A stretch of 45,195 bases of DNA from Lachnospiraceae bacterium (GTDB lineage Bacteria > Bacillota > Clostridia > Lachnospirales > Lachnospiraceae). The position numbers and the translations under genes were made by a program. The notes under the pieces were generated by a model. The model saw only the letters and a list, made by a program, of their open reading frames with translations, was not told where the DNA came from and did not search any database. The stretch covers positions 1-45,195 of the forward strand of contig JAIKWO010000147.1 in NCBI GenBank assembly GCA_024684675.1, read 5' to 3'. This document shows positions 1 through 39,603 of this stretch, in pieces (positions within the stretch are counted from its first letter, which is position 1; each line of letters starts with the position of its first letter).

Positions 1-2292
1 CGGCCTGTCTTTTCTGCTGTCATATACTTTTATGAGATTTAAGCGAAGCGCGTTCGATACCACGCAGAAGCTCGATAAGCCCATTGCCGCCGCGCCAAAC
101 AGCGGATTTAAGCTCCAGCCGAATGCCGCCACATAGCAGCCTGCCGCCAGCGGGATCCCGATCACGTTGTAGAAGAACGCCCAGAACAGGTTCTCGTGGA
201 TATTGCGGAGCGTCGCACGCGAGATCCGGATCGCAGCTGCCACGTCGCGCAGGCTACTCTTCATCAGAACCACATCCGCCGCATCGATCGCAATATCGGT
301 ACCTGCGCCGATCGCGATACCGACATCCGCGCGTGTCAGAGCAGGCGCATCGTTGATGCCATCGCCCACCATTGCTACCCTGCCATGCTCCATGAGATCC
401 CGGATCACCGCTTCCTTGCCATCCGGCAGAACGGATGCGACCACCTCGTCGACGCCCGCTTCTCCTGCGATCGCAGTAGCCGTGATCTCGTTATCACCGG
501 TTAACATAACTGTGCGAATGCCCATTTTCTTCAGTTCTCTGATCGCTTCTGCCGAGTCGTCTTTGATCGTATCCGCGACGGCGATCACACCGAGGATCCG
601 TCCCTCTTTGGAGAAAAGAACAGGCGTCCTGCCCTGTCCAGCCAGCTGCGACAGTGTATCGTCACTGTCAACATCTTCGCCGGTCATCTTTGCGATAAAG
701 CGAACATTGCCGCCTGCGATCTGTATGCCATCCACCTTCGCAGAAAGACCGTTTCCCGCCACCGCTTCAAACTCCGTTGTAACAAGCGGCTGTACATGAT
801 TTGCTTCTGCGTATTCGACGATCGCTTTTGCGATCGGATGCTCGCTCTTACTCTCCAGCGCATAGGCAGCACACAGAAGTTCGTTTCGATCCGCTGTGCC
901 AAGCGGGATCACATCCGTCACCCGCATCACGCCTGTAGTGATCGTACCCGTCTTGTCAAGTGCGATGATCTCGGTCCTGCCCGTCTGCTCCAAAGACGCC
1001 GCCGTCTTAAAAAGGATCCCCGCCCTTGCGGATACGCCGTTCCCGACCATGATCGCAACAGGTGTTGCAAGCCCAAGCGCGCAAGGGCAGCTGATCACGA
1101 GAACCGATACCGCTCTTGCCATCGCATAGCCCACTGACTCGCCTGCAAGGAGCCAGACTGCAAACGTGATGAGTGCGATGCCGATCACAACAGGAACGAA
1201 AATGCCTGAAACACGGTCCGCGATCTTGGCTATCGGTGCCTTAGTCGCCGCTGCATCGCTGACCATACGGATAATTCCCGCAAGCGTTGTATCTTCGCCA
1301 ATGCGCTTGGCCTCACAGATCATGTGACCGGAAGTATTGATCGTCGCAGCCGATACATTGTCTCCGATCGTCTTCTCGACAGGGACGCTCTCTCCCGTAA
1401 GGGCCGCTTCGTTTACTGCACTCTCACCTTCTACGACAATGCCGTCGACAGGAATGCTTTCACCCGGACGAACCACAAACCGGTCGCCTACCTTGACCTC
1501 TTCGATCGGCACCGTTTTCTCAAAAGCGCCGTCCAGAATGACAGCCGTCTTCGGGGCAAGCTTCATCAGGGACTTCAGTGCATCCGTTGTCTTGCCTTTG
1601 GATCTTGCCTCCAGCATCTTGCCGACCGTAATGAGCGTCAGGATCGTTGCCGCCGATTCAAAATAGAATTGGTTCATGTAGTATATGATCAGGTCTTCGT
1701 TCCGATCGACCACTGCCGCGGTCATCGCAAACAGCGCCCATACGCTGTATGCATAGGCTGCCGTCGCGCCGAGTGCGACCAGCGTGTCCATATTGGGCGA
1801 ACGGTGCACAAGGCCCTTAAAGCCACTCACAAAAAACTTCTGATTGACCACCATCACAGCGCCGGCAAGCAATAACTCATATAAGCCCATCGCCACGTGA
1901 TTGCCGTCCAAAAACGCCGGGAGCGGCCAGTCCCACAGCATATGTCCCATCGAGACATACAAAAGCGGAAGCAGGATGATGACAGAAGCAATAAGGCGTC
2001 TCTTCATCCGTGGTGTCTCGGTGTCTTTCAGTTCATTCTCGTAGCGGTCACTCGAAGCAGCGCTGCCGGCTCCCGAGCCGTTCTTAGCGCCGGCGCCCTT
2101 CAGACTTGCGCCATAGCCCGCAGCTTCTACTGCCTGTATGATCGCATCGGGTGATGCGCTTCCCACGACACCCATTGAATTGGTAAGAAGGCTTACCGCG
2201 CAGCTCTCTACGCCTTCCACAGCGCCAACTGCCTTCTCTACTCTCGTCTGGCATGCAGCGCAGCTCATGCCGGTAACATTGTATTGTTCCAT
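1..2292 (-). CDS. copA: Copper-exporting P1B-type ATPase, 3' end cut by window edge
   Basis: Pumps Cu(I) out of the cytoplasm using ATP. 764 codons are visible and no stop is reached, so the C-terminus lies outside the window. One N-terminal heavy-metal domain carries GMSCAAC (Cys11 and Cys14). The actuator loop has TGES (299-302), the sixth membrane helix the CPC ion site (402-404), the phosphorylation site is DKTGT at Asp446, the nucleotide-domain His-Pro is at 485-486, and GDGINDAP is near 644. Late helices carry the YN and MxxSS features of Cu(I)-type pumps. The ATG is preceded by GGAAAGAGAG. It lies 23 bases downstream of the CsoR gene and probably shares its copper-inducible promoter. 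Silver is the usual alternative cargo. The left end reads [10 protein letters not shown], close to the usual end of such proteins, so little is probably missing. Confidence 0.95.
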
Positions 2293-30136: not shown

Positions 30137-31039
30137 TCAGTCGTTCTCCTGATCGGATACATTGTCACAGATGATGGCAAGTGCGATCGCAACGTCCTTC
30201 ATGCTCTCGTTCATGATGCGGATGCGATAGCAGTCGGACCAAACCGTGCGATCCGTATCAACATGTGCGACGGTATTGCCGCCAACCTGAATGTCGAAGT
30301 CAAATCCCATGATGTCGCCGGCAATCTTCAGCTCCTTGCCGTTCACCGTGCCATTCAACTCAGGCTTGGTCAGTTTCAGCTTTTTCTTGATGGAAGCAAC
30401 TTCAGTGCCGTTCTTCTCAATGCTGTAGGTCGGCATGATCGCAACAAACTTCTTCTTAAGCTTTACAACTTCTTCGCCGTTCCTTTGGATCGAGAAATTG
30501 TGACGGGTTAAATCGCCTTCAACATGATATGCCGTAGCCTGATTCCGATCGAAGATATCAAACTTGGGCGTAATGGAGATCGCCTTCTGCTTCATGTACA
30601 ATTCGATCGCTTCACCGGTAGCTGTAGCAACAGGTGCTGCCGCTGCCGTCTCGGTAACCGTCTCGCCTGCTTCCAGCTTCTTGATCACTTCGCAGAGCTC
30701 ATCAACCGCGCGGTCTGCCTTGGATGTGCCCGCATCCTTGTGACCCAGGAACATATCAAGTCCCATATTCAGTGCGGTGGAAGCGCCGCTTACGCCGTCT
30801 GTGCCGATCTTGCCCATAATGATCTTGCTTCCGTCCACTCTGACGAATACATCAAAGTCCTCGGAAACCCGCTTATACATAACGGACTGTATACCTCTGA
30901 TGTCACCCATGACCGGTACACCGAAGCTTACCTTGACCCCGGAAAGCTTCGCCAGAAGATCTGCATTTGTAAAGTTCTGTGTGTTCTTAACGCTGGCATA
31001 CCCCATGTTGCCACCGCCGGACATATCAAATAATCCCAT
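30137..31039 (-). CDS. LOR/YxjI (tubby-like) domain protein with novel N-terminal half
   Basis: A 300-residue soluble protein. The C-terminal half (about 145-290) reads as a LURP-one-related / YxjI beta-barrel: repeated strands such as AISITPKFDIFD, HNFSIQRNGEEVVKLKKKF and ELKIAGDIMGFDFDIQVGG, a fold shared with tubby proteins. The N-terminal half (about 1-135, with GIQSVMYKRVSEDFDVFVRVDGSKIIMGKIG) is not recognised. No enzyme activity is known for this family; membrane-lipid or scramblase-like roles have been proposed for tubby-fold relatives. GAGAGGGG before ATG 31039 sets the start; a longer frame to 31075 has no site. Its promoter is a close architectural twin of the one that drives the TlpA-to-clostripain operon ending just upstream. 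Confidence 0.78.
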   Translation of the reverse strand: MGLFDMSGGGNMGYASVKNTQNFTNADLLAKLSGVKVSFGVPVMGDIRGIQSVMYKRVSEDFDVFVRVDGSKIIMGKIGTDGVSGASTALNMGLDMFLGHKDAGTSKADRAVDELCEVIKKLEAGETVTETAAAAPVATATGEAIELYMKQKAISITPKFDIFDRNQATAYHVEGDLTRHNFSIQRNGEEVVKLKKKFVAIMPTYSIEKNGTEVASIKKKLKLTKPELNGTVNGKELKIAGDIMGFDFDIQVGGNTVAHVDTDRTVWSDCYRIRIMNESMKDVAIALAIICDNVSDQEND

Positions 31040-31092: not shown

Positions 31093-31152
31093 ATTCTAAA
31101 TCGTATTTTATGCAAAGTATAGTACCCTCATGGGTACCCTGCATGCTTTTTT
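31093..31152 (-). promoter_or_regulatory. LOR gene promoter with 12-bp-period AGGGTAC direct repeats
   Basis: On the minus strand: A-tract (31147-31152), two identical AGGGTAC copies (31134-31140 and 31122-31128), abutting a poor -35 TATACT (31116-31121), a 17-base spacer and TAGAAT (31093-31098). A weak -35 with abutting direct repeats is the layout of an activator-dependent promoter. The same layout occurs at 39423-39482. Confidence 0.68.
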
Positions 31153-31157
31153 ACGGA

Positions 31158-32864
31158 TCACTCTGTCAGGTACCAGTCATCCGATGCTTCATCGTATACG
31201 TAGATCTCATCACTGTCTTCATCATAGAAGAAAATGTTGTCCGAGTCTTCGTCGTAAAGGTACAGGTTACCGTCCGCATACTGATACCAGAGGTCGGAAT
31301 CATAGTCATAGATCCAGTCGTCGACCGCTTCGTCTTCATATCCGTAATAATCGGCTTCGTCATAGTCGTAACCGTACTCACAGGAACCGCCGCCGCTGAT
31401 GTTGCAGCCATACTCGCTCTCATAATCACCCCAGCCGTTCCACATATCTTCGAATACGCTGTAGTTGAAGTAGTCCTCGCCACCATCCGAGACAAAACGC
31501 GCGAGCCATTCCACGTATTCGTCATCCAGTCCGATCTCCCTGTAGACGCTCTCTAACTGGCTATACAGATCGGAGTCTCCGTAAGGCAGTGATACCGCAA
31601 GCCCGGTCAGCTCGTTCTTATCGGATGTATGTCCGTAATAGGCAACAGCTGCCTTCAAGGCCGACTTCAGCTTCTTTGCCTCTTCGCTGTCCTTATCAAC
31701 GTTCTCGATCAGAGCAAGCATATCGCTGATATAGTAATCGGACAGAGTAACGTTGCTCGCATCATCTCCCCATGAATCCCAGTAGCCTCTGCCCATACGC
31801 CCGCGGGACATATGCGCCCTGCTGTAATTCGTATCAAGAAGCGTATCCTCATTCTTGTATGCGTAGTCTTTCCACGCGGCAAAAAGGCTCTTCGCCGTCG
31901 AGGTATTGAAAAGACCCATGCAGGCGGAATCGCCACCCTCTCTGGTCTCATTTTCCGCAATAATGTCATCTACGATATATTTGCCGAGAAGCGGTGTGGA
32001 CATGCCCGGATTTTTCTCAAGCTCATCCATCCACTTCGTATAGCTCCACCCCAGGCCCGATTCAAAGTCTTCGGAAAGAAGCGTATATTTACAGTACGGT
32101 GCAAACGCGTAGACCGTCTCAAGGCTCGCCATGATACAGCAGTCCATCCCGATGATATCGAAATGCACATCCTTATGCTCGTTAAAAGCGCCCGCCATCT
32201 CCGCGATCGACAGGCTCTCGCCCTCCGGCTGCCACTGGTCGTAACCAAACCCGTAAATCGGTCCCCCGCCGTGGTTCCAGAACAGGAAAAAGTAGCGATC
32301 CGCAGGATAATTTTCCTTGCAAAAACCGATGAATTCGGAAAGTGTGCTCTGCTCCGTACAGGCAAGCTGACCGAGATTGTCGCGGATCAGGCTAAGCCCT
32401 CCGTCCTCAATGCGCCAGGTCTGCGCTGTTTTTGCAGAAATATCAAAATCCTGCCATTTCTTCGTGCCCATGGTCTGGATGATGACATTGACATTCTCGC
32501 CGATACCGGAATCGATCATCTCAGTGATATCAAGTGATGCTTCGCCGGCCTCCGATTCAAGATCGGAACCGTTTACATAGATCATGACGGTCGCGCTTTT
32601 TGCATCCGTTCCGACCGATATACTAGAAGCATTTGCATGGTGTGCGCCCGATCCGGATGCCGGACTGCTGCCCTCTGCATCATCTGTTACATTCTCCGCT
32701 TCAACGGCAGTCTGTTCCGCAGGCTCGTCATCCATGATGTCCGCAACCGCGATCAGAATGATCCCGATCACGGCAAACACGATCACAAGCAAAATGCCTG
32801 CGCCGATCGCAAGCAGCCTTTTCAAAAGCGCCTCCTGCATCTTATTGTTGAGATTCCCACTCAT
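31158..32864 (-). CDS. Clostripain-family (C11) cysteine protease with tandem acidic tail
   Basis: A 568-residue membrane-anchored or exported protease. One N-terminal helix (about 14-41) leads to a Ser/Gly/Asn linker and a peptidase C11 domain with catalytic His198 (FWNHGGGP) and Cys243 (GMDCCIMAS; Cys242 sits where clostripain has Ala). C11 enzymes cut after Arg or Lys and self-activate. The C-terminal 80 residues are Tyr/Asp-rich, with a run of 10-residue units of the pattern hhxYDE(D/A)SD(x). The ATG lies 8 bases after GGAGGA, which is also the end of the 88-residue gene upstream. It is the last gene of the seven-gene operon, and no clear terminator follows. Confidence 0.9.
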   Translation of the reverse strand: MSGNLNNKMQEALLKRLLAIGAGILLVIVFAVIGIILIAVADIMDDEPAEQTAVEAENVTDDAEGSSPASGSGAHHANASSISVGTDAKSATVMIYVNGSDLESEAGEASLDITEMIDSGIGENVNVIIQTMGTKKWQDFDISAKTAQTWRIEDGGLSLIRDNLGQLACTEQSTLSEFIGFCKENYPADRYFFLFWNHGGGPIYGFGYDQWQPEGESLSIAEMAGAFNEHKDVHFDIIGMDCCIMASLETVYAFAPYCKYTLLSEDFESGLGWSYTKWMDELEKNPGMSTPLLGKYIVDDIIAENETREGGDSACMGLFNTSTAKSLFAAWKDYAYKNEDTLLDTNYSRAHMSRGRMGRGYWDSWGDDASNVTLSDYYISDMLALIENVDKDSEEAKKLKSALKAAVAYYGHTSDKNELTGLAVSLPYGDSDLYSQLESVYREIGLDDEYVEWLARFVSDGGEDYFNYSVFEDMWNGWGDYESEYGCNISGGGSCEYGYDYDEADYYGYEDEAVDDWIYDYDSDLWYQYADGNLYLYDEDSDNIFFYDEDSDEIYVYDEASDDWYLTE

Positions 32865-32867
32865 GCA

Positions 32868-33134
32868 TTATCCTCCAAACACGGCAGACTTTGTTCCTTC
32901 TGCCAGATACTCCCCGTAGTCCACAACAAATTGTGCCAACCGAAATGAAGAATCGGTCTCATCGACACCAAGCTTTGCGGCAAGCTTCCCCACCAGCTCG
33001 TCGTCATCCGTAATACCGGACTCCATCAGATCCAGAATCGCTTTATCTTCCGCTTCGATCTTTTTCTTTTTCCCCTTCATACAGACCCATGTCTCATCAC
33101 CCCGTATGATCTCTGCTTCAGGTCTCCACTTCAT
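32868..33134 (-). CDS. 88-residue protein, possibly PqqD-like
   Basis: A small soluble protein of uncertain family. The middle and end (IEAEDKAILDLMESGITDDDELVGKLAAKLG and FVVDYGEYL, shown here in parts) resemble the helical part of PqqD-like domains, which bind leader peptides of ribosomally made peptides, but the match is by eye only. It lies 6 bases after the LuxR stop and 3 bases before the protease start, and its last codons GGA GGA TAA supply the ribosome binding site for the protease. It is clearly a real gene of the operon: GGAGG precedes its own start and spacing is tight. It could be an adaptor or substrate of the protease. Confidence 0.72.
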   Translation of the reverse strand: MKWRPEAEIIRGDETWVCMKGKKKKIEAEDKAILDLMESGITDDDELVGKLAAKLGVDETDSSFRLAQFVVDYGEYLAEGTKSAVFGG

Positions 33135-33140
33135 GCTGTC

Positions 33141-35531
33141 TTATCCTCCTTGTCTCCCCCCGCCCCTGTGTACCAGGCCGAGCTGGAGTGCCTTTCTTTC
33201 GGCATCCGCACGGCTTTTTACACCGAGTTTTTTATAGATATTTCTGTTATGCTTTTTCAATCCGTCATAGCTGATGTTCAGGCCGGCGCAGATCTCTTCC
33301 GTCGACTGTCCCGCGCAGAGCATCGCCAGTACCTCCGCTTCGCGGGTCGTTAGCGATACCGTTTCCTTCGGAATGTACTTCATATATGCAGGATAGTTCG
33401 TTGCGACTGTCAGACTTTCGTCGTAAACCCTCTTAAAGAATGACTCTTCAATGTCCGCAAGATCCGTTTTATCAAGCTCCTTCAGCAGTGGCAGAACTGC
33501 TGTCCCCTCCAGCGAGATGAGCCGCACAAAATGATACTCATTCGCCTGATGCAGTGCGTCGATCAGATGCTTTTTCCAGTGCGCATCTCCCTGCCTGTAC
33601 AGAATGACGGACTTGAGGATCTCATTTTCCATCCACATGAAATGCCGTGCGTATCCTTCCAGATAACTTGTCAGGAAATTCGCCAGATCCAGTGCTTCTT
33701 CCAACCGCTCTTCATGGATCAGGCAGCGGATCTTCATCATCTGCCTGTATCTGTCCAGGATGGCAAAAAAGACTCTTGCATCCGGAACGGAATCGATAAA
33801 TTCGCGGATACGGTCGTCGCCTGCGCCGTCAAAGAGCGAAAGCCATACGCCGAAGGCTTTCAGATTGGGCACCAGTCTGTCTGCCCCTTCCTTCTCGATC
33901 TTCTCCGCGATGGAATCATAGACACGCTTTGCGGAAGGATACTGCCCCTCCACCAGATGCTGCCTGATCTGAATGCCGGCCGAAACAAAACACATCTCGA
34001 TCTTGCCGCCGTGTGATGCGGCATCATAACCGTCTGCGCATCTTGTCAGTACCTCGTACGCGGGCATCATGCCTTTTTCAAAACCACTCTCCGCAAGTGC
34101 GAGCGTCACAAGTCCCTTGCCAAAGCCCGCCAGCAGTGAAGTCAGCGGCTTCCCCATAAACCGCGCGATCTGCGTATCGTTCTTCGACCATTCGGAAAAA
34201 TCCAGCCCGCCGTTCATGACAGACGGTGTATTACCTGTCACACAGAATTCCGGCAGAATGATATCTCCTGCCTGAATCATGGAGAAAACGTTCTTCATGA
34301 TGAGCAGGATCCCCTTGATCCCGCGGTGCGGGAGTGCAATATCCAGATACGCCAAAAGCGCTTTCGCTTCCCGGCGTCTCTCCCGCCTGTTGCTCGGATC
34401 CTTCTGGAAAAGCTCCAACTCGTGGTACCACTCTTCCGACTTCTCCGGCATAATGAGCAGGCTGCAGAGCATGCTCATCCCCGACATCAATACAGGCGAA
34501 AGGAGAAGCTCCTCCCGCGGCATTTCAAAGTAGTATTCCCTTGTCTCTATAAAATGACCCGTTCCGGGATGCATTCGTGCATTCCGCACGAGCAGTTCCT
34601 TGATCTTTCTGGTTGCGCCCGCTTTTCGATAATACAGGAGTGCGTGAGAGGCATCATCTTTTCGCTCGTAATACTCTGCCGCACGCAGATAATTCTCCGT
34701 GATCGCATCCTTCGACCATGTCAGTTCCTGTTTCCAGATGTAATAGCCCCGCATCTCCCAGCGGATCGCAAAGTGACCGTTCGTCTTCACTTCAAGCTGG
34801 TTCATCACGTCCTGACAGTATTCGATCATCTTCGTGATATTGCCGTTGCCTGTCAGATACTCCGCCATCTCTACGGTGAATTCGTCGTACCGGCACACGC
34901 AGAGTGCGAACTTCAGGAAATCCTCCATCCAGTTCTCTGTCAGGTATCCGTCCCACATGCGGAAAAGATCCTGCCGCACGGCCGCGCGAATATCCTCGGA
35001 GTACCGTACCCCGCCTTCCATACGGGATGCAAACGCATACAGCGAGCGCGGGTAGCCACGGGAGATCCGCGTCACCGGCTCGACATCATCGGGATGCAGC
35101 TCTACATCTCTGTCTTTGAAGAATTCAATGACCTCCCGCTCGCCGAGTGCAAAATCCTTCTCTCTGATCCGCACGAATCCAAGATCCATATAATCCGCCG
35201 CCAGAAATTTAGGCACCGCCCCTCTGGTTAACATAACAACCTGCAGGCCACTCTCATGAAGCAGTTCCTTCACATAACGGATCGATTCTTCCTCGGAAAG
35301 CCACTGCATATCCTCAATGATTACTACACTGCCGCGGAATGAATCAAGTGCCGGCCGCTCCGTGAGATTCCCATCCTCACATTTCAAAACAAGCGGATTT
35401 TTCCTTCGGTAGTAATACTCCACCGATGCGGTCTTGCCCCAGCCGGATGCGGCCGTCATGATTACGGGCGAGAAGAATTCTTCAGCCTTTTTCAGTTTTT
35501 CAAATACTGTGGGAACCTTAATATATCCCAT
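33141..35531 (-). CDS. MalT-type LuxR-family transcription activator with P-loop ATPase
   Basis: A 796-residue regulator of the large ATP-binding LuxR (MalT/STAND) class. The N-terminus has Walker A ASGWGKTAS (Lys33, Thr34), a Walker B-like VVIIEDMQWL, and MLTRGAVP. A long helical region that could form TPR-like sensor repeats follows, and the C-terminus (about 725-790) is a LuxR HTH (LTTREAEVLAMLCAG, TEEICAGLNISYDGLKKHNRNIYKKLGVKSR in two parts). Such proteins bind an inducer and ATP, oligomerise, and activate promoters that carry direct repeats next to the -35. It lies in the middle of the operon, 14 bases after the sulfatase stop, and is the obvious candidate regulator of the twin promoters at 31093 and 39423. 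Confidence 0.88.
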   Translation of the reverse strand: MGYIKVPTVFEKLKKAEEFFSPVIMTAASGWGKTASVEYYYRRKNPLVLKCEDGNLTERPALDSFRGSVVIIEDMQWLSEEESIRYVKELLHESGLQVVMLTRGAVPKFLAADYMDLGFVRIREKDFALGEREVIEFFKDRDVELHPDDVEPVTRISRGYPRSLYAFASRMEGGVRYSEDIRAAVRQDLFRMWDGYLTENWMEDFLKFALCVCRYDEFTVEMAEYLTGNGNITKMIEYCQDVMNQLEVKTNGHFAIRWEMRGYYIWKQELTWSKDAITENYLRAAEYYERKDDASHALLYYRKAGATRKIKELLVRNARMHPGTGHFIETREYYFEMPREELLLSPVLMSGMSMLCSLLIMPEKSEEWYHELELFQKDPSNRRERRREAKALLAYLDIALPHRGIKGILLIMKNVFSMIQAGDIILPEFCVTGNTPSVMNGGLDFSEWSKNDTQIARFMGKPLTSLLAGFGKGLVTLALAESGFEKGMMPAYEVLTRCADGYDAASHGGKIEMCFVSAGIQIRQHLVEGQYPSAKRVYDSIAEKIEKEGADRLVPNLKAFGVWLSLFDGAGDDRIREFIDSVPDARVFFAILDRYRQMMKIRCLIHEERLEEALDLANFLTSYLEGYARHFMWMENEILKSVILYRQGDAHWKKHLIDALHQANEYHFVRLISLEGTAVLPLLKELDKTDLADIEESFFKRVYDESLTVATNYPAYMKYIPKETVSLTTREAEVLAMLCAGQSTEEICAGLNISYDGLKKHNRNIYKKLGVKSRADAERKALQLGLVHRGGGRQGG

Positions 35532-35545
35532 GCGTATCCTCCGCC

Positions 35546-37582
35546 TTACGGCTCAATCACATTGAAGGTACCTCTGTTTCCGCCGGATGTGCTGTCGAGA
35601 TTCTTCGCAAATGCGGCAAATTTTGACACATTTCCGGAGATCGATGCTTTCTTTTGGAAATCCTCGCCCGCACCGCCAACAAGCATCAAAAGCATTTTAG
35701 ATGTGCAGGTCACATTGATATCAGCGCCGGATGCGGGTCTTCCTTTTGCGTACAGAAGCGCACCGGAGCGCATGTAGACTGTATAGTTCTCGTTTGTATC
35801 GGTTAATGCGAACGTGATCGTGTATTTCTCGTTTGCCATTTTTGCCTTATCAAGCATAATGCCCATGTAGTCAAAAGCCATCTCGGGCGTTAAGTTTACC
35901 ATGAGATCCTTGGCAAACTGCTTGTTGCCGGCTGCTTTTTCCGCCTGATTGCCCTGCCGGAGTTCAAGCGCCGCTGTCAGGTAACAGTTGCGCCATGTGC
36001 CGGATTCCGCCTGATAGCCGAGCTGCTCCAGCGCATCCGCACAGAGCGCTCTCGCTTCCGCATTGGAAGGATCTGCAAAGAGGATCGTGTTGGTGAATTC
36101 CGCCACCCACTGGTATTCACCGCGCTGATATTCCTCGCGCGCCTTCTTCATCGCCGCATCAAGACCGCCAAGTTCAAGATACTGTTTCCACTTTTTTGCG
36201 CTCGCCTCGGGCGTCATTTTGTTCAGGTTGATCGGATTTGCATCATACCAGCCCATGTACTTCTGATATACCGCCTTGGCATTGTGCTTCAGAGTGCCGT
36301 AATACTGGCGCGTGTACCAGTTTTTTGCAAGAGGCGCCGGCAGAGTGATCCTGTCTGCGATCTCGGTGGATGTGTAACCCGCGTTGATCATGGAGAGCGT
36401 CTCGTCATTGATGTATTTATAGACTGCTGCCGTGTTGATCATGTATTCATTGACATTCTCCGTACCCCAGTGCGGCCAGTTATGGGACTGGAATACGACA
36501 TCCGTCCTGCTGCCGTAAAGTGCTACGGCTTCCATGATATATTTTGCCCAGGCGCCACCGTCCCGGACCTCCGCACCGCGGAGCGTATAGAGATTATGCA
36601 GGGTGCCGGTGCAGTTCTCCGCCATCCAGAGCGCACGCTTCTGCGGGAAATATGCGTTCATCTCCGCAGGTGCCTCCGTGCCGGGCGTCAGCTGGAATTC
36701 GATCTCAACACCATCGATCGTCATTTTTTCGCCGGTTTGCTTGATCTCATAAGTCGGCATGACAAACGTCGGCGTTCCCTTGGACTGTCCCATGCCGATG
36801 CCGATGGACATACCGCCCTGCTCGTTCTTGGGAAGAAAATTGCCGTACTGATACTGTGCGCGGCGGCTCATACCCGTTCCCGCATTCAGGTTCTCCGCAA
36901 CCGCATGCTCCGCAAAGCCTTCCGGTACGATCACCGGAACCTTGCCGCTTGCGATCTGCTGATCGATCGGAAGGGAAGCATCCGCCATCTTCGTTTCATC
37001 AGTAAAAGCTCTGACTCCGCCAAAGTGATCAATATGGGAATGCGATATGAGCACTGCCTTCACGGGACGCTCGCCGAGATTCCTGTCAACGATCGCCTTC
37101 GCTGCCTGCGCGCATTCCAGCGTCATGGATGTATCGAAGATGATCCACCCTGTATCGCCCGCGATAAACGTCACGTTCGCCATGTCATAGCCACGCACCT
37201 GATAGATGCCGTCCATGACCTGAAACAGGCCGCACACATGGTTATTCTTCACATTTTCCCAAAGGCTTGGATTGACCGTATCCGGTGCCTGATCCTGCCC
37301 GTCCAGGAATGCGTACGCCTTCTGGCTCCAGACAACATGCCCGTCATCCGCGAGGATCTCCAGTGCTTCAGGCGCCTCGATCAGCCCTCTGTTCGCATTG
37401 TCCCACTCACTCCTGTCCGTAAAATCAAGCATGTCATACCATGCCTGATTGGCGGCTTTCGTATGCACCGTCGCGGGCTTTTGCTCCAGTGTAGGCTTAT
37501 AGCCCGCGCCCGTTACCATCGCCCATACAAGCAGAAGTGCCGTGGCTCTCGCCACTGTTTTTACAGTCACAAATCGCTTCAT
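35546..37582 (-). CDS. Exported alkylsulfatase-like metallo-beta-lactamase-fold hydrolase
   Basis: A 678-residue protein of the SdsA1/YjcS-type linear alkylsulfatase family, which releases sulfate from alkyl sulfates with two zinc ions. The signal-like hydrophobic start (MKRFVTVKTVARATALLLVW) suggests export. The metal motif is HSHIDHFGG (His181, His183, Asp185, His186). An alkylsulfatase dimerisation region (LGGLDAAMKKAREEYQRGEY) and a C-terminal SCP2-like domain (AFDYMGIMLDKAKM, INVTCTSKMLLMLVGG) are present. GAGGGGAG before ATG 37582 sets the start. Real substrate is unknown; the neighbours are redox proteins, a regulator and a protease, and no sulfate user is present. Confidence 0.9.
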   Translation of the reverse strand: MKRFVTVKTVARATALLLVWAMVTGAGYKPTLEQKPATVHTKAANQAWYDMLDFTDRSEWDNANRGLIEAPEALEILADDGHVVWSQKAYAFLDGQDQAPDTVNPSLWENVKNNHVCGLFQVMDGIYQVRGYDMANVTFIAGDTGWIIFDTSMTLECAQAAKAIVDRNLGERPVKAVLISHSHIDHFGGVRAFTDETKMADASLPIDQQIASGKVPVIVPEGFAEHAVAENLNAGTGMSRRAQYQYGNFLPKNEQGGMSIGIGMGQSKGTPTFVMPTYEIKQTGEKMTIDGVEIEFQLTPGTEAPAEMNAYFPQKRALWMAENCTGTLHNLYTLRGAEVRDGGAWAKYIMEAVALYGSRTDVVFQSHNWPHWGTENVNEYMINTAAVYKYINDETLSMINAGYTSTEIADRITLPAPLAKNWYTRQYYGTLKHNAKAVYQKYMGWYDANPINLNKMTPEASAKKWKQYLELGGLDAAMKKAREEYQRGEYQWVAEFTNTILFADPSNAEARALCADALEQLGYQAESGTWRNCYLTAALELRQGNQAEKAAGNKQFAKDLMVNLTPEMAFDYMGIMLDKAKMANEKYTITFALTDTNENYTVYMRSGALLYAKGRPASGADINVTCTSKMLLMLVGGAGEDFQKKASISGNVSKFAAFAKNLDSTSGGNRGTFNVIEP

Positions 37583-37630
37583 TTGTACTCTCCCCTCGCA
37601 GCTCATGCCGCATTTTTCGTATGATCTATC

Positions 37631-38461
37631 TCAATGATCAAAAAATCTTCTATACCGGATCGCTCCCTTTGGACAGACTTTTTTGCAAGCGCCGCACTGA
37701 ATACATTCGCGGTCGCCCACACACGTTACATCCATCCTGCACATTTCGACGCAGGCATTACAGCCGGTGCATTTCCCCTTATCTACGGTGAGCCCGAAAA
37801 ATGCGACCGGGTTAAAAAGCGAATAGATCGCCCCAAGCGGGCAGAAGAACCTGCAGAAGGCACGGTAGCACACCGTGCAAAGCAGAATGCAAAGAACCAG
37901 CAGGTATACTTTCCATGTGAAAAGAAAGCCTGCCATGTCTCTGATCTCTTCATTCAGGATCATAAGCGGAATCCCCGCCTCGATCGTCCCCGCAGGACAG
38001 AAATATTTGCAGAATCCCGGCGCCGCCTTTATGATCGGTATCGCGATCACAAACAGCGCTAGGATCACATATTTCATATAGGAAAGCGCTCTTGTCAGCC
38101 GATTCTTCCTAACTTTGGGGAAAGGAATCGCATGCAAAAGCTCCTGAAAAAGCCCAAACGGGCATAAAAAGCCGCAGATCATCCGGCCGAGCAGAATGCC
38201 GAAAAGCAAGATCGTGCCCAGCATATAAAACGGAAAGCGGTACGCGGACATGGCGAGCGCCTCCTGCAGGCTTCCAAGCGGGCAAGACAATACGGCTCCC
38301 GGGCACGAATAGCAATTGAGTCCCGGGGCACAGATGCCCTTTGATACGCTCTTGCTGATCCTGCCGGTCACAAATCCCGTTAGATGGCAGTTATACAGTA
38401 CGGCTGCAAGAAGCTGCGTATATTTCCGACCATATTTTCCCAAATGCTCATGAAATCTCAT
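37631..38461 (-). CDS. NapH-like 4Fe-4S membrane protein
   Basis: A polytopic membrane electron carrier of 276 residues. Repeated CxxxCPxG loops between helices are visible (GFLCPFG, KYFCPAG, RFFCPLG), plus CYSCPGAVLSCPLG near the N-terminus, as in NapH/CcoG/RsxE-type polyferredoxins. The C-terminus holds two 4Fe-4S ferredoxin motifs (CTGCNACVEMC and CIQCGACKKVC). It probably passes electrons through the membrane to an exported redox partner. The start at 38461 shares one base with the stop of the CxxC mini-protein; the longer frame to 38509 lies inside that gene. The neighbouring TlpA-like protein is the likely electron acceptor. Confidence 0.9.
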   Translation of the reverse strand: MRFHEHLGKYGRKYTQLLAAVLYNCHLTGFVTGRISKSVSKGICAPGLNCYSCPGAVLSCPLGSLQEALAMSAYRFPFYMLGTILLFGILLGRMICGFLCPFGLFQELLHAIPFPKVRKNRLTRALSYMKYVILALFVIAIPIIKAAPGFCKYFCPAGTIEAGIPLMILNEEIRDMAGFLFTWKVYLLVLCILLCTVCYRAFCRFFCPLGAIYSLFNPVAFFGLTVDKGKCTGCNACVEMCRMDVTCVGDRECIQCGACKKVCPKGAIRYRRFFDH

Positions 38462-38604
38462 CAACCGATCCCCACGCATTCCATGCAGACCATCACGGCT
38501 TTGGTCCATATATCCCGGTATCCGCCGGCCACAATGCCCATCAGGAGCATCACAAAGCCTGCCAAAAGAAGCGTAATGCGTATGATCCGCTTTGATCTTT
38601 CCAT
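38461..38604 (-). CDS. CD1871A-family CxxC mini-membrane protein
   Basis: A 47-residue protein that begins MERSKRIIRI, continues with a hydrophobic helix (about 10-27) and ends KAVMVCMECVGIG, the hallmark C-terminal CxxC-xGIG of the CD1871A family. It has AGGAGG 6 bases before its ATG, and its stop overlaps the start of the NapH-like gene by one base. In this family the gene sits between a TlpA-like protein and a 4Fe-4S protein, as here, so the CMEC pair may relay thiol electrons across the membrane. The function has not been shown. Confidence 0.85.
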   Translation of the reverse strand: MERSKRIIRITLLLAGFVMLLMGIVAGGYRDIWTKAVMVCMECVGIG

Positions 38605-38637: not shown

Positions 38638-39369
38638 TTAGTTTAGATAACTCTCCAGGCGTTTTTTCACTTTGCTGCAGCTCTGTCCTGCCATCATCTT
38701 GCCGATGATATGCCCCTCACGATCAACGAGGAAGGATGTCGGGATCACCTGGATGCCCGAAACAACGTCATACAGATCATCACTAAAGCGTAGGTTCATA
38801 AACTGTGCGCCCGCGCTGCTCATGATCTCCTCCGCATAGGATACATTGTTGTCGATCCCGTCGTATGTATCCACGATGAGTCCTATAAGGTTCACGTTGC
38901 CGGGAAGTTCACGATCAAGAGCTACATAGTCAGGCATCCCGTTGATACATGCTCCGCAGTAAGTCCCCCATACATGAACGATCGTAATATCGTAATCTGA
39001 AAAAATGTCCTGTGTTACCTTATTGCCGTCCAGCGAGGTCGTGCGGAACCTAAGCTTACTCTTCGAAAGCTCGCTAGCCGGGATATTGACGGATGCATTG
39101 TTTTCGGAGGAAGCTTCCTGCCCGGATGTATCTTCCTTGCCTGAATCTTCCATCGTACCTGCTGCTGCAGATGATTCGTCGTCAATTTGACCATCTTCAG
39201 AAGCGGGTGCTTCATCTTCGTCCACGGTCTCTTCCACGACCGTTTCCTGCTTCGCAACTTCCTCCTTGTCATCATCCGGCCAGAACAGAAAGACCACAAA
39301 AACCATTCCCAGTGTGAAAAAAAACGTGCCGACCATGATCAGGATCGTATATATCACTTTATTATTCAT
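38638..39369 (-). CDS. Membrane-anchored TlpA/ResA-like thioredoxin
   Basis: A 243-residue extracytoplasmic thiol-disulfide protein: one N-terminal helix (about 7-29), an acidic, low-complexity linker (about 30-92), then an AhpC/TSA-redoxin fold with active-site Cys138-Gly-Ala-Cys141 (WGTYCGAC) and the cis-Pro loop (VIPTSF). ResA and TlpA proteins keep apo-cytochrome c thiols reduced; here no heme gene is nearby, so general reduction of exported thiols or peroxide is more likely. It is the first gene of the seven-gene operon, with the promoter at 39423-39482 and 33 bases to the CxxC gene. Confidence 0.9.
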   Translation of the reverse strand: MNNKVIYTILIMVGTFFFTLGMVFVVFLFWPDDDKEEVAKQETVVEETVDEDEAPASEDGQIDDESSAAAGTMEDSGKEDTSGQEASSENNASVNIPASELSKSKLRFRTTSLDGNKVTQDIFSDYDITIVHVWGTYCGACINGMPDYVALDRELPGNVNLIGLIVDTYDGIDNNVSYAEEIMSSAGAQFMNLRFSDDLYDVVSGIQVIPTSFLVDREGHIIGKMMAGQSCSKVKKRLESYLN

Positions 39370-39422: not shown

Positions 39423-39482
39423 ATTGTATGCTCTGCAAGAACCGATTCATAGTACCCTTATAGCTACCTTGTCTGCTTTTTT
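39423..39482 (-). promoter_or_regulatory. Operon promoter with 12-bp-period repeats, twin of the LOR promoter
   Basis: On the minus strand: A-tract (from 39477), AAGGTAG (39464-39470) and AGGGTAC (39452-39458) with a 12-base period, abutting a poor -35 TATGAA (39446-39451), a 17-base spacer and TACAAT (39423-39428). Every element has the same spacing as the promoter at 31093-31152. The first repeat copy here has two changes from AGGGTAC. Confidence 0.68.
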
Positions 39483-39492
39483 TGATACAAAG

Positions 39493-39539
39493 ACAAACGA
39501 CCGGTATCTTACCATGGAATATAGTAAGAGATCGGTCGT
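39493..39539 (-). terminator. Intrinsic terminator after mccA
   Basis: Sixteen-base arms with two mismatches (39497-39512 and 39524-39539), followed on the minus strand by TTTGTCTTTG. It separates the mcc genes from the downstream TlpA operon. Confidence 0.78.
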
Positions 39540-39603
39540 CTGTCAAGGCAATTTGACATATATGGATTGGATAGGTTGCCTGTTTTACCCTAAGGAAAAA
39601 CCG

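Follow-up and report, generated by a model that had tools for sequence, protein, structure and literature searches.

Results

The window analysed here is the whole 45,195-nucleotide stretch of contig JAIKWO010000147.1 (assembly GCA_024684675.1) from a Lachnospiraceae bacterium. Past promoter 1, all on the minus strand, lie genes for a TlpA/ResA-like membrane-anchored thioredoxin (38638-39369), a NapH-like 4Fe-4S membrane protein (37631-38509), an alkyl-sulfatase-like hydrolase (35546-37606), a 796-aa MalT-like STAND ATPase with a C-terminal LuxR/GerE helix-turn-helix (HTH) domain (33141-35531), an 88-aa protein (32868-33134) and a C11 (clostripain-family) peptidase (31158-32864). About 130 nt follow the first gene and the remaining gaps are short; from strand and spacing, we infer that the six genes form one transcript. 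Promoter 2 is located directly 3' of the stop codon of the C11 gene and heads a gene for a LURP-one-related (LOR) protein (30137-31039, minus strand). Between cysK and the operon is a single-copy hairpin (39490-39547, minus strand; -30.9 kcal/mol, z -6.7) that is 96% identical in the sister genome G080, of the same genus (SIG339). No Rfam family was found near promoter 1, the hairpin included, and PADLOC gave no match for anti-phage defence in the operon. Two differences from G080 were seen: the alkyl-sulfatase-like gene has no match in the same operon there, and a lipoprotein gene sits between promoter 2 and the LOR gene of G080 that is absent from this place in the window.

Read directly on the minus strand, promoter 1 (39483 to 39423) is AAAAAAAGCAGACAAGGTAGCTATAAGGGTAC followed by TATGAA, a 17-nt spacer and TACAAT, and promoter 2 (31152 to 31093) is AAAAAAGCATGCAGGGTACCCATGAGGGTAC followed by TATACT, a 17-nt spacer and TAGAAT. 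Each has an A-tract (39477-39483 and 31147-31152), a 16-bp operator (39452-39467 and 31122-31137), a poor -35 position (39446-39451 and 31116-31121) and a -10 hexamer (39423-39428 and 31093-31098). All distances between these elements match, including 23 nt from GGGTAC to the -10 hexamer, while the two spacers show no relatedness. These parts and distances had been described in a sequence-only reading of the window, and our re-reading agrees with it exactly for both promoters; nor did a scan of the window find a third copy. The pattern ARGGTASN5AGGGTAC, in a pattern-based scan of the 2.03-Mb assembly (83% complete), has exactly two matches, which are these two promoters, against an estimated chance expectation of about 0.06 and one match in a backwards control. 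The motif is thus not scattered over the genome, which was the first point on which the sequence-only reading could be checked. With two mismatches allowed, extra matches in the genome were only at chance level, the same as in the control. Allowing up to three mismatches added one promoter copy, GTACCC-TTGG-GGGTAC, located 5' of a small lipoprotein gene (G000:C108:4469-4484, minus strand, which is 1504-1519, minus strand, of locus L006). The shared element of the two window promoters is real and no chance pair.

The sequence-only reading took the unit of this element to be direct repeats with a 12-base period. As a bare description of the two window sequences this is accurate, since RGGTA and GGGTAC stand 12 bp apart in both promoters. 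What is conserved in some 40 related loci, however, is a 16-bp inverted repeat, GTAnCC-N4-GGnTAC, which ends 23 nt before the -10 hexamer, and direct repetition is not kept. Across 51 sites, this core has a T after it and, in the close clade, AAAA-RCA before it. Averaged over these sites, agreement is 6.5 of 9 positions by inversion compared with 4.0 of 9 by direct repetition. The positions before the left GTA lack the conservation seen before the right one, and divergent sites hold the inverted symmetry while dropping the direct one. Several sites are perfect palindromes, such as GTACCC-TTAA-GGGTAC of Butyrivibrio sp. Su6 (AAAAGTACCCTTAAGGGTACTTTT). In the window, the arms of operator 2 are perfect (GTACCC-ATGA-GGGTAC). 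Those of operator 1 (GTAGCT-ATAA-GGGTAC) are imperfect, which counts against this reading; operator 1 is found at the same place in G080 and G135. The A-tract had also been proposed as conserved. It does occupy the same place in both window promoters, but among relatives its position is kept only in the close clade. The matrix used to search for the 51 sites included it; in the set obtained without a matrix, the whole tract is present in 31 of 60 core matches, a count that includes reverse readings of palindromes.

The position of the site relative to the promoter was examined in the same set. The core has 60 matches, palindromic ones being counted on both strands, across 1.14 Mb of related loci, and none in the reversed sequence. 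Although the -10 hexamer was not part of the core search, one with at least four of the six TATAAT bases lies exactly 23 nt downstream in 32 of the 60, compared with 1 to 13 of 60 at other offsets. At the -35 position, 42 of the 51 sites have three or fewer matches to TTGACA, mostly one to three of six. If the -10 hexamer is placed at -12 to -7, the palindrome covers -51 to -36 with its centre at about -43.5. The site therefore has a class II position: it abuts or overlaps a poor -35 at a single fixed distance from the -10.

The 796-aa regulator carries a Walker A P-loop near its N-terminus (AASGWGKT in P0001), of which GK[ST] is kept in all aligned relatives. Its NTPase domain (residues 70-318) has a profile match to the MalT structure 8bob_C (E 2.2e-5), and its C-terminal HTH (residues 726-779) matches PF00196 (GerE; E 1.8e-14). 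The match to PF17874 (TPR_MalT; E 1.5e-6) is weak, at 28 bits where the gathering score is 45. With Walker A, GerE HTH and MalT-related NTPase, the protein is a regulator of the LAL (large ATP-binding LuxR-family), MalT-like STAND type. We rejected MalT proper as its identity because it scores 65 bits against the equivalog cut-off of 537 and the operator is an inverted repeat, unlike MalT boxes. Orthologues are found in the family and in named Oribacterium, Butyrivibrio, Eubacterium oxidoreducens and E. xylanophilum, as well as in rumen MAGs.

Site and regulator were then compared across relatives. The element lies 5' of the Tlp-regulator operon and again 5' of the lipoprotein-LOR genes in G080 and G135, so that relatives do have the motif in front of this operon, the second point on which the sequence-only reading could be checked. 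Of 200 genomes searched for protein and motif, four have the motif; all four belong to the five whose regulator reaches 57% identity or more, and the site of the fifth, G112, is altered. When 397 family genomes were scanned for the motif alone, six had matches. In two of these, G277 and G331, the regulator was not known beforehand and was found directly beside the site (61% and 45% identity). G381, a single-contig congener, has neither regulator nor site. In the named genomes, the core was found in 28 of 36 loci whose regulator has at least 51% identity, in 1 of 43 below this and in none of the reversed control. The co-occurrence is partly circular because the first pattern was built from regulator-adjacent sites of four genomes; evidence independent of that first definition comes from G277 and G331, from the lack of the motif in other genomes and from the named loci added later. 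Loci of distant homologues (30-36% identity) have no site of GTAnCC type, and some close orthologues (L098, L101, L103) have no recognisable site although their upstream sequence is available. In Eubacterium oxidoreducens DSM 3217 (L092, position 10398), the operator faces the contig end, and the 600 nt left there hold no clear gene.

In divergent relatives, both halves of the site are altered together, and the recognition helix differs in most. Where GTAnCC-type sites go with the helix LKKHNRN, half-sites ATTACAC/GTGTAAT go with LKKHNYN (L096), TCCACC/GGTGGA with VKKYNSR (L116) and CTACCC/GGGTAG, found in L112, L114 and L118, with LKFH(N/K)KN in the first two; L127 has CTGACC/GGTCAG. A TCCACCTGGGTGGA-like operator occurs at two promoters of L043 (3046 and 9183, minus strand) and at two of L116 (7912 and 14049), and the regulator at these loci has 63% identity and the different recognition helix KKYNSR. 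Judged from these sequences, the pairing of TCCACCTGGGTGGA-like operators with KKYNSR is a putative natural specificity switch. The co-variation of operator and helix is suggestive, not statistical, because independent specificity switches are few.

Genes directly downstream of sites in relatives encode the regulator, small lipoproteins, LOR proteins, C11 peptidases, a PrsW protease, a bacterial PH-domain protein and a transglutaminase-like protein, and second genes encode M15 and YkuD enzymes. These genes therefore point to the cell envelope. The likely targets are the regulator's own operon, lipoproteins, LURP-one-related proteins, C11 peptidases and other envelope-linked genes.

The 88-aa gene had not been listed among the open reading frames because it falls below the 90-aa cut-off, but it is conserved with the regulator across genera. 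By strict counting, with some further copies seen only in a looser search, 24 of 37 loci at or above 50% identity have it immediately after the regulator, as do 10 of 17 loci at 36-50%; of 23 loci below that range, none does. The protein has no Pfam or NCBIfam match, and a sequence search of its family against solved structures gave nothing significant. Its AF2 model (pLDDT 84) has as best PDB match the lasso-peptide RiPP recognition element (RRE) protein TbiB1 (5v1u; TM 0.77, Foldseek E 1.3e-3). The protein is thus predicted to adopt a PqqD-like beta3-alpha3 fold resembling a stand-alone RRE. No RiPP-type enzymes are among the gene families that recur in the flanks of regulator loci.

Discussion

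We argue that the shared element is very probably the operator of a LuxR/GerE-type activator, namely the operon's own MalT-like STAND ATPase, and that it would work by class II activation. A signal would let the ATPase oligomerise, so that two HTH domains could bind both half-sites as a dimer centred near -43.5. The bound dimer would stand in for the -35 contact and recruit RNA polymerase, and the A-tract near -60 may be touched by the C-terminal domain of the alpha subunit. As the regulator would drive its own operon, the circuit would have positive feedback. Its regulon would be very small: the LOR gene here, the small lipoprotein gene elsewhere in the genome and more envelope-associated genes in relatives. 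The bound activator of the sequence-only reading thus keeps its substance in our model, with two promoters that appear co-regulated and an activator site apparently replacing a poor -35, and loses the direct repeats as the form of its site. The LuxR-type protein, which that reading favoured as the binder, is still the best candidate, as suggested by its co-occurrence with and adjacency to the site in many genera.

The same protein could instead be an autorepressor: bound at the same operator, which overlaps the -35 region, it would block that region. There is precedent in SCO6993, a LAL regulator of Streptomyces coelicolor, which binds palindromes, including one at its own promoter, and represses (PMC9628970). 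We consider repression unlikely here, for the -35 is consistently poor and the distance from operator to -10 is fixed, as expected if polymerase needs a bound protein. It is also quite unlikely that operon 1 is transcribed mainly from TTGACA-17-TATATT (39518-39546, minus strand), about 100 nt upstream, with the repeat in a secondary role. Eleven of its 12 bases match the consensus and it is conserved in G080, but it sits inside the strong hairpin at 39490-39547, which resembles a cysK operon terminator, chance alone would give as many promoter-like matches in this region, and promoter 2 has no such element.

That another transcription factor binds the site, with the MalT-like gene merely one of its targets, seems very unlikely to us. 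Binding by the regulator is predicted from sequence and the genome has other LuxR-type genes; against this, the site tracks the regulator gene across genera, adjoins it and is absent from congeners without it, and altered half-sites accompany altered recognition helices. A head-to-tail arrangement of monomers or dimers on direct repeats of 12-bp period, like that of MalT at its boxes, is in our judgement highly improbable. In its favour, RGGTA occurs twice at a distance of 12 bp in each site of the window, and short asymmetric boxes are familiar from MalT-type regulators (PMC9628970). Against it, the flank of the left GTA is not conserved in the way that of the right one is, inversion describes the sites better than direct repetition does, and divergent sites keep the inverted symmetry. 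An RNA hairpin or terminator, with which symmetric changes would also agree, can hardly account for the repeat, and we rejected it: the repeat keeps a constant distance to a -10 that stands downstream of it, its arms are of only 6 bp, often contain mismatches and are not followed by a T-run, and a terminator scan did not find it.

An operator of this activator would have relatives among known systems. The closest solved HTH domains to that of the regulator are the DNA-binding domains of NarL, LiaR, VraR and GerE. NarL recognises the heptamer TACYYMT with TAC outward, and its sites are spaced 7-2-7. The half-site core TACCC resembles this heptamer, but the regulator here is no response regulator and the spacing of TAnCC..GGnTA is 5-4-5. 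The lux box of Vibrio fischeri LuxR is an inverted repeat centred near -42/-43 that overlaps the -35, a comparable class II position; the site described here is instead a 16-bp GTAnCC palindrome, and its regulator has no autoinducer domain. With E. coli MalT and other LAL proteins, the regulator shares the STAND NTPase, the C-terminal GerE HTH and, going by the weak profile match, perhaps the TPR-like middle. The boxes of MalT are short and asymmetric, GGA[TG]GA (PMC9628970), in contrast to the inverted repeat described here, and maltose genes play no part in this system. SCO6993 resembles the window regulator in being of LAL type and acting on palindromic DNA that includes its own promoter, which for the latter is predicted, but its sites are without consensus (PMC9628970), whereas there is a strict consensus at a fixed class II position here. 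A search of the open-access literature gave nothing relevant on a Lachnospiraceae LuxR/clostripain regulon or its site. The kind of system is known, while the literature searched seems to hold no description of this regulator, its operator or its regulon.

The analysis also reveals a small protein, absent from the list of open reading frames, whose gene is conserved next to that of the regulator. It is conceivable, though doubtful, that the RRE fold of the 88-aa protein senses a bound peptide and relays its state to the STAND/LuxR activator, instead of serving peptide modification. Such a peptide could be, for example, a cleavage product of the regulon's C11 or PrsW proteases. If this were true, the palindromic promoter would be the self-amplifying part of a circuit for a peptide signal or envelope damage.

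Few regulators of rumen and gut Lachnospiraceae have been characterised. The proposed circuit, with one regulator, one operator and a handful of promoters, turns a promoter oddity into something testable, and the natural variants in which operator and helix have both changed would offer a direct test of how GerE-type helices read DNA.
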